This document shows, one piece after another, positions 21,704-22,932 of a stretch of DNA of 46,073 bases. Numbering within the stretch: position 1 is the stretch's first letter; every line of letters starts with the position of its first letter. The translations under genes were made by a program, and so were the position numbers. Where the stretch lies: the NCBI GenBank assembly GCA_949296705.1, contig CASFOW010000005.1, forward strand, positions 1-46,073, given 5' to 3'. Below the pieces are notes generated by a model that ran no database searches, was not told the origin of the DNA, and worked only from the letters and a program-made list of their open reading frames with translations. The stretch is from an uncultured bacterium. Lineage in GTDB: Bacteria; Bacillota_I; Bacilli_A; RF39; UBA660.

Positions 21704-22543
21704 AAGGCAAATGCAATCGCAACAAATGGTACTCATAAAAGACAAGAACGTTATGCAGACCAAATCGTTAAATTAATGAGACCATCTTTAAAAATTAGAA
21801 ATACTTTTTCAAGGGATTATATTGGTAACCCAACTGCAGGAGCAGTAAATGTACCAGTTCGTAATACTGATGTTACTATGCGTGATTATGATATTAAAAA
21901 CGGTCTAGCATTGGAGCAATCAGCAACTGATTACAAGAATATTCCTATTACAAAAAATAAAGGATTAAATGAATTAATCGATGGTTATGAAGCAGCAGCC
22001 GTTCCAGATAACTTAATGGCTCAAAGATTAGAAAGTGCTTCATATTCAAGTGCAAAAACTTTAGAAGATGATGCTATTCTTGCTTTAACTACTACTAATA
22101 CAGCTTCAACTCAACCAGATTGTACTAAAGAGAATGTTTATGAGAATATTGTTAAAGATATTGCTAACATTGCTAAATTAGGTGTTGACAAAAATAGAAT
22201 GTATGTAGCAATTTCATACGAAATTGAAAGTATGTTACTTACTGATGAGAAATATTCTAATACCGCTTCACAAATTGGTGCAGAATTAGCTCGTGAAGGA
22301 GTAGTTAATAAAATTAATGGTGTTAAAGTTATTACCCAAGATTTAGGCGAAAGTGTTGAATATATCGTTTATGCAACTGAATGGTGTCAAGCTATTGATG
22401 AGTGGAAGGTTAATCCAGTTGTTGTTGATTTAACTACTGGATCATCTGAATTTATTGGAGCTTCTGCATTAAAGGGTCGCTTCGTTTATGAAGATGTAGT
22501 AACTGATGCTAAAGCTGTCATTGTAAAAAAAAAGTCAGCTTAA
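21704..22543 (+). CDS. Major capsid protein, AAG start codon
   Basis: HK97-fold capsid protein, 279 aa. AAGGAGAGTGAT is followed by TTTA and AAG 21704, immediately after an in-frame TAA, reading ANAIATNGTHKRQERYADQI then RPSLKIRNTFSRDYIGNPTA. Related capsid proteins begin MANAI..., so AAG sits exactly at the expected Met-1. The first in-frame ATG is 24 codons in, has no ribosome binding site and would delete the N-arm. Near the end A AAA AAG (22528-22534) can divert ribosomes to a 132-aa extension. Confidence 0.92.
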   Translation, partial: KANAIATNGTHKRQERYADQIVKLMRPSLKIRNTFSRDYIGNPTAGAVNVPVRNTDVTMRDYDIKNGLALEQSATDYKNIPITKNKGLNELIDGYEAAAVPDNLMAQRLESASYSSAKTLEDDAILALTTTNTASTQPDCTKENVYENIVKDIANIAKLGVDKNRMYVAISYEIESMLLTDEKYSNTASQIGAELAREGVVNKINGVKVITQDLGESVEYIVYATEWCQAIDEWKVNPVVVDLTTGSSEFIGASALKGRFVYEDVVTDAKAVIVKKKSA

Positions 22544-22932
22544 CTGATAAAGTAAGTATTCCAAGTGGAGAAACCGAACTTTACGGGAAAACAGTTAATG
22601 ACTTAGCTTCAAATTTAGAGGTTCAAAGCGATGGGAAAGTAATAGGTACACTTAATTATGTAACTGGGTACACTGGTTTTAATTCTACAGTTGTAGAAGA
22701 GCAATCAGGAAACTATTTCCCATTTAGTTTAGAAGTAACAGGTACTAATATGACATTTAAGAAAAATGGAGAAGTTTCAAAAGAAAATATTCCGTTTGAA
22801 AAAGAAAATGTTTTTAGAATCACCTCACAGACTGATAAATTTGAAGTTTTAGTAGATAACGAAAGTGTTATCACGTTTGATTTTTCAGAAACAGAATTAA
22901 AAACTGCTGCAAAATCAAGAAGTAGAAAATAG
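22534..22932 (+). CDS. Capsid C-terminal extension reached by -1 frameshift
   Basis: An open frame without its own start or ribosome binding site continues from the slippery heptamer A AAA AAG in the -1 frame for 132 codons (VSLTDKVSIPSGETELYGKT, GTLNYVTGYTGFNSTVVEEQ, SGNYFPFSLEV, EVLVDNESVITFDFS). This beta-rich domain resembles decoration or Ig-like domains appended to capsid proteins. The product would be a 409-aa minor capsid form. Reading it as a separate gene from ATG 22750 would lose half the domain. Confidence 0.82.
   Translation, partial: VSLTDKVSIPSGETELYGKTVNDLASNLEVQSDGKVIGTLNYVTGYTGFNSTVVEEQSGNYFPFSLEVTGTNMTFKKNGEVSKENIPFEKENVFRITSQTDKFEVLVDNESVITFDFSETELKTAAKSRSRK

Follow-up and report, generated by a model that had tools for sequence, protein, structure and literature searches.

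Is this phage capsid gene recoded at both of its ends? The question is raised by a gut prophage in a DNA stretch of 46,073 nt from an uncultured bacterium, which in its full length is referred to here as the window. A sequence-only reading had proposed that a minor share of the capsid proteins is lengthened by a -1 frameshift. The slip site and the extension frame held in our analysis. The premise had to be corrected in one point: the capsid frame has no canonical start. Without any bench evidence, we consider it likely that slippage leads into an extension at the 3' end and that translation at the 5' end starts at AAG by means of a phage tRNA. The prophage sits on contig C5 of a host genome of 1.58 Mb.

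Slip Site and Extension Frame at the 3' End of the Capsid Gene

The major capsid protein gene (21704–22543, plus strand) matched phrog_267 (major head protein, E 3.7e-12), and its apparent start is an AAG at 21704. The 3' end of the gene reads GTA AAA AAA AAG TCA GCT TAA, with the stop codon at 22541–22543. An A9-G slip site spans 22525–22534 (plus strand) and contains the heptamer A AAA AAG at 22528–22534, which lies in the zero frame as the third base of a codon followed by AAA and AAG, and then by TCA GCT TAA. The heptamer had been claimed to lie near the end of the capsid frame, which was confirmed, and 7 nt before the stop, which was corrected to 6 nt. Apart from the nine-A run at 22525–22533, neither strand of the 46 kb contains nine or more consecutive A.

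A -1 slip at this site opens 132 codons (22534–22929), which end at a TAG at 22930–22932. This C-terminal extension (22534–22932, plus strand) matched phrog_31690. The claim that the 132 codons have no start of their own held: the first ATG, GTG or TTG is codon 80 of the 139 codons of the frame and lies within the domain, so that the frame has no usable start. Independent expression of the extension, which would have refuted the proposed frameshift, is therefore disfavored by the sequence.

The extension was compared with its counterparts in L015/L017 (IMG/VR), a phage of 90% identity, and in G209. Counted by codon positions 1, 2 and 3 of the -1 frame, the differences from the window numbered 3, 7, 16 and 8, 4, 22 for the two relatives, and this third-position bias indicates that the extension frame is translated. 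Just behind the slip site, AGC TTA in the window is replaced by AGT CTA in L015/L017, a change that is silent (Ser-Leu) in the extension frame. Seven further loci retain 9 or 10 A at the equivalent site, so that all 8 of the 8 A-run sites have this length; at L098 the run reads A10-C and not A-G. The uniqueness of the A9 run, the third-position bias and the retention of A runs in relatives show that the A9-G site is real and not a product of chance. No strong stimulatory RNA structure was found downstream of the slip site of the window, only a short hairpin directly 3' of it (22534–22548, plus strand), which is weak (z -2.1 over a 79-nt stretch) and of unproven role.

The short form of the capsid protein would have 279 residues and the long form about 409, as inferred from sequence alone, and the presence of both forms in the virion is likewise an inference. 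In either form the AAG would specify residue 1. The peptide across the capsid/extension junction of the long form is predicted to contain AVIVKKKVSLTDK.

Predicted Fold of the Extension and Its Occurrence in Other Phages

Pfam gave no family above the cut-off for the extension. AlphaFold2, run with four sequences, predicted a beta-sandwich (pLDDT 84.9, pTM 0.79). The nearest solved folds were FN3/Ig-like modules with only weak matches (Foldseek E 0.011; VIA Z <=5.1), and three phage proteins of no known function matched the model well (TM 0.69–0.77). The model thus predicts a beta-sandwich that is weakly Ig/FN3-like, which supports the earlier description of the extension as beta-rich.

A search with the extension revealed homologues out of frame behind unrelated capsid or tail-tube proteins. 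The sites in front of them differ. A runs of 9–10 would serve for a -1 shift in the window, L015, L022, L025, L026, L028, L030 and L098, and G runs followed by a long inverted repeat would do so in Flavonifractor phage Chenonceau (L009) and in L010. L012 has T TTA AAA after a tail-tube gene, L007 has A AAC CCT, and +1 sites of the form CCC-TAA/TAG are present in L023, L029, L033, L038–L043 and L045–L047. In L032 the domain is fused in frame to an HK97-type capsid protein. The extension domain thus moves between capsid and tail proteins and exists in both in-frame and frameshift versions. The public record of Chenonceau lists the homologue as a hypothetical protein of its own, and the homology starts upstream of its annotated start. 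In the close capsid relatives L134 and L136–L138, this C-terminus is fused in frame to another domain, which is Ig/cadherin-like.

Because of the conserved -1 frame, the out-of-frame homologues, the in-frame fusion in L032 and the beta-sandwich prediction, the proposed minor long capsid form with a surface domain is supported as the best reading of the sequence.

Several further observations were made among the relatives. The capsid C-terminus of L097 also carries another beta-rich domain, in frame where the window frameshifts. In L035 (G085:C9) the extension domain is inserted within a protein resembling a contractile-tail sheath. CCC-TAA/TAG sites of the SPP1 type precede many extension relatives, the upstream proteins of which are mostly unidentified. 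A strong inverted repeat lies just 3' of G GGG GGT at the capsid end of L009 (3950–4040, Chenonceau), L010 and L016, and is likely to act as a frameshift stimulator.

Apparent AAG Start Codons in the Late Genes

The capsid frame opens with GTG ATT TAA AAG GCA, and after this stop no ATG, GTG or TTG occurs until codon 25, the first ATG. The Shine-Dalgarno (SD) sequence of the gene (-15.0 kcal/mol) is aimed at the AAG. When all frames of the window were scanned for the strongest SD, AAG was found at the start position of six genes (all on the plus strand): terS, encoding the terminase small subunit (15451–15828; phrog_4102, E 5e-24; SD -17.4; the first ATG, at 15535, is internal), portal (17592–19064; phrog_533, E 1e-107; SD -12.6), capsid, major tail (tube) protein (24500–24949; phrog_820, a weak match with E 0.004; SD -14.2), tape measure (25972–27939; phrog_991, E 2e-46; SD about -15) and a tail collar/fibre-like protein (31325–32203; phrog_9116, E 8e-33; SD -11.7). 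The minor head, scaffold and connector genes had ATG starts in the same scan. A copy of the motif in front of the capsid gene also precedes the portal gene, and the upstream GTG is out of frame in terS of both the window and L053. AAG is the minor lysine codon in 16 window genes (23%, against 77% AAA). We infer that the capsid N-terminus is KANAIATNGTH or ANAIATNGTH.

The AAG was kept at the start in all related phages compared: portal 17/17, capsid 11/11, tail tube 7/7 and tape measure 3/3. AAA, the majority lysine codon, never occurred at these positions. Altogether 47 AAG start sites were counted in 20 loci, after one false positive was left out. GTG ATT TAA AAG GCA also precedes capsids with 64% identity or much less (G060, L052). 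In the stretch from the AAG to the first ATG, the changes that fell on the first, second and third codon positions numbered 1, 3, 9 for capsid and 1, 0, 8 and 3, 1, 11 for portal, a third-position bias which indicates that this stretch evolves as protein. Portal homologues of phages lacking the tRNA described below have ATG or GTG near the matching place (L149, L150, L152), and in-frame stops directly precede the portal AAG sites.

For a census we took the codon behind the strongest SD in each long frame. It was AAG in 35 of 109 frames of these phages, in 0 of 44 of the host chromosome (Fisher, p 1e-6) and in 0 of 34 of other phages, which lack the tRNA (p 2e-5). The base at -1 was A for 45 of the 47 AAG starts; among the ATG starts of these phages it was A for 36 of 75 (p 1e-8). 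These phages, mostly gut-metagenome loci, share ancestry, so the counts are not independent; the leaders are AT-rich and related, and the enrichment of A at -1 is support rather than proof.

Other explanations of the missing start were ruled out. Sequencing error or decay is excluded by the presence of the motif in independent assemblies, including very divergent capsids. Read-through of the TAA in GTG-ATT-TAA-AAG is excluded, since no SD precedes that GTG in the portals and other AAG sites lack GTG-ATT-TAA. A start at the ATC/ATT of codon 5 is not possible in the capsid of L052, which has TTA there, and fusion of the capsid to the scaffold gene is excluded by a different frame relation in L017. 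The motif GTGATTTAAAAGG alone was rejected as a marker: most of its matches in other genomes were chance matches with few open codons behind them.

A tRNA with Anticodon CUU Upstream of terS

A tRNA gene with anticodon CUU, which reads AAG, lies at 15352–15425 (plus strand) upstream of terS. Its product has a C1xA72 mismatch and an encoded CCA, and we propose that it is an initiator. ARAGORN missed the gene at this position, and Rfam detected it (tRNA, 40.4 bits). In related phages the CUU tRNA gene is almost always the immediate upstream neighbor of terS, an exception being L084, where a different gene comes next. The tRNA was present in every AAG-start phage whose terS region was read. A prediction was also met: all 5 of the 5 genomes chosen by an AAG motif before a long capsid or portal frame carry the tRNA (G060, G186, G209, G247, G395), and three of these five tRNAs are stem variants outside the tRNA pattern used.

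C1xA72, A73, CCA and the loop GU-CUCUUUA-GC were invariant in 18 of 18 distinct tRNA sequences, and position 1:72 is unpaired in all 18, unlike in elongator tRNA-Lys(CUU). The stems covary, with 95% of cells paired and a covariation of 0.453 versus <=0.22 for shifted partners. In the anticodon stem, pair 29:41 is G-C or A-U, 30:40 is G-C and 31:39 is U-G in all sequences; position 37 is U and not A. Pair 11:24 of the D stem is A-U in 9/18 and U-A in 9/18, among them the window copy, which is a changed form with U11-A24 and a poor T stem.

Members of the better-preserved tRNA class share 78–83% identity with host tRNA-fMet and at most 67% with any non-initiator host tRNA, and the tRNAs of L095 and L137 are intermediates toward the more changed class that includes the window copy. 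The sequences show that the CUU tRNA is of initiator descent. It was not classed as tRNA-fMet because of its U-G at 31:39 and its anticodon. The six nearest tRNAs checked in public phage genomes all had CAU and none had CUU. No tRNA-Lys was present among the host tRNAs examined (the host tRNA set of the assembly is incomplete). Two matches to the tRNA pattern (L096, L100) were due to chance, and a tRNA-Ala in L013, the capsid gene of which has an ATG, was not initiator-like.

Proposed Mechanism

The sequences themselves show AAG at the start positions, a tRNA with the matching anticodon and a mismatched acceptor end, the co-occurrence of the two, and the conserved extension frame; how these act together is inferred. 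At the 3' end, slippage on A9-G, either of the ribosome by -1 on A AAA AAG or of RNA polymerase on the A run, would provide a minority of capsid proteins with the Ig/FN3-like domain. At the 5' end, the phage tRNA(CUU), derived from tRNA-fMet, would bind in the P site to the AAG codon that the SD sequence positions there, and U37 could form a fourth pair with the A at -1 of nearly all AAG starts. The set marked in this way would comprise terS, portal, capsid, tail tube, tape measure and one tail gene.

Charging of the tRNA would most likely be with lysine by lysyl-tRNA synthetase, because methionyl-tRNA synthetase recognizes CAU, and virion proteins would then begin with formyl-lysine rather than formyl-methionine. 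The tRNA may be formylated and bound by IF2 and may initiate the virion genes; all three steps are inferred. Its position ahead of terS would couple the synthesis of virion proteins with late transcription or make this synthesis independent of the host initiator, which is also an inference. A bolder reading, towards which the evidence tips us by a small margin, is that of a natural second initiation code in which a lysine-charged, formylated tRNA(CUU) starts the virion genes at AAG and late synthesis relies on this tRNA, as a safeguard in lysogeny or as an escape from host attacks on tRNA-fMet.

Several points speak against a role as initiator. U31-G39 replaces the third G-C pair, position 37 is U, the window tRNA is changed, and a Pfam scan of 30 window proteins detected neither a synthetase nor a formyltransferase nor an initiation factor.

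Alternative Explanations

The strongest rival concerns the 3' end. The extension may arise by transcriptional slippage, which would add an extra A to some mRNAs, and not by a ribosomal -1 shift; the product would be nearly identical. In favor of this, all eight A-run sites exceed what a heptamer needs, the site of L098 ends in C, and the structure downstream is weak. Against it, relatives of the domain use a G run, T TTA AAA, A AAC CCT or +1 CCC-TAR, which are ribosomal types, and the site of Chenonceau has a long inverted repeat downstream. On balance we lean slightly against transcriptional slippage.

We regard it as very improbable that the extension is expressed alone as a separate decoration protein. 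The annotation of the Chenonceau homologue would fit this, but the first canonical start in the window lies more than half way into the frame, the Chenonceau homology begins upstream of the annotated start, and L032 has the in-frame fusion.

At the 5' end, the tRNA could be an ordinary elongator tRNA-Lys that aids decoding of the late genes, which would then start at another codon. ARAGORN labels the better copies tRNA-Lys(ctt), and the copy in the window is altered, with no A11-U24 pair. This explanation is hardly tenable in view of C1xA72 in all copies and the similarity of one class to host tRNA-fMet. Moreover, AAG is the minority lysine codon in the window genes and is fixed behind the SD where AAA is not, in-frame stops stand directly before the portals, and the upstream GTG is out of frame in terS of the window and L053.

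Finally, AAG is a very weak start codon with tRNA-fMet, and poor reading of AAG by the host initiator could keep the late genes weak while the phage tRNA is unrelated; strong SDs could partly compensate. We regard this as very unlikely, since high expression is required of capsid, tail tube and portal, the tRNA accompanies AAG starts in all cases where both are readable, and AAG alone, with no other near-cognate codon, is found in these places.

Comparison with Known Systems

Frameshift direction and in-frame fusion are known to vary between relatives of Ig-like phage domains (PMC5009743; Fraser 2006). In phages T3, Lactobacillus A2 and Listeria A118/A500/PSA, a -1 or +1 recoding event at the gene end places a C-terminal beta-sandwich on a share of the capsid or tail-tube proteins, as is predicted for the window, and they have relatives with in-frame versions, as does the window domain. 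The window family differs from these systems in having no Pfam entry above the cut-off and in its A9–10 runs, which also suit transcriptional slippage. The tail-tube protein gp17.1* of SPP1 carries an FN3-type C-terminal extension that results from +1 slippage at CCCUAA (PMC6316719). Sites of the ACACCCTAG/TAA type, as in SPP1, occur in members of the present family, whereas the window relies on a -1 slip at an A run and in a capsid gene. Extension by an Ig-like domain through recoding is thus an already known phage trick, to which the window adds a further member.

What would be new is the start of the capsid gene, a start-codon change specific to a gene set and brought about by a dedicated initiator tRNA. 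In the open-licence literature that we searched, we found no report of a natural, gene-set-specific initiator tRNA for a non-AUG start. Measured against the defining features of initiator tRNA-fMet (PMC4611024; PMC8576571), the CUU tRNA resembles bacterial and phage tRNA-fMet in C1xA72, A73-CCA, U33 and G30-C40 and, in one class, in overall sequence. It differs by CUU for CAU, U37 for A37 and U31-G39 for G31-C39, and by its link to AAG starts in late genes. Engineered initiator tRNAs that read UAG start chosen genes at a non-AUG codon (PMC8576571) and likewise have a changed anticodon on an initiator body; unlike these, the phage tRNA is natural, concerns the sense codon AAG and a set of phage genes, and no dedicated synthetase was seen. 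Some phages use suppressor tRNAs to give the stop codons in their late genes a new meaning. Here, too, a phage tRNA would alter decoding and late genes would be written in an altered code, but initiation and not termination or elongation would be affected. Extended codon-anticodon pairing has been proposed for AUG (Esposito 2003, cited in PMC9841429), and pairing of U37 with the A at -1 would possibly be a parallel to it.

If the initiator reading is true, gene callers assign wrong start positions to key genes of these phages, one tRNA can switch bacterial initiation, and a natural orthogonal initiator is available. Initiator rules would become testable, namely the roles of the U31-G39 stem, of U37 and of extended pairing, and the ability of formyl-lysine to begin proteins at virion level.

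Other Features of the Window

Three features outside the recoded genes were also noted. An intact tRNA-Gly(CCC) lies beside a minus-strand integrase gene at 29–1298 and is a likely attachment site. A protein with a SocA/Panacea antitoxin-like domain is encoded at 33915–34481, near the right end of the prophage. A skipping-rope RNA (RF02924, 52.8 bits; Rfam) was detected at 20899–20983 (plus strand) between the minor head and scaffold genes, and it is also present in L051 and L052.
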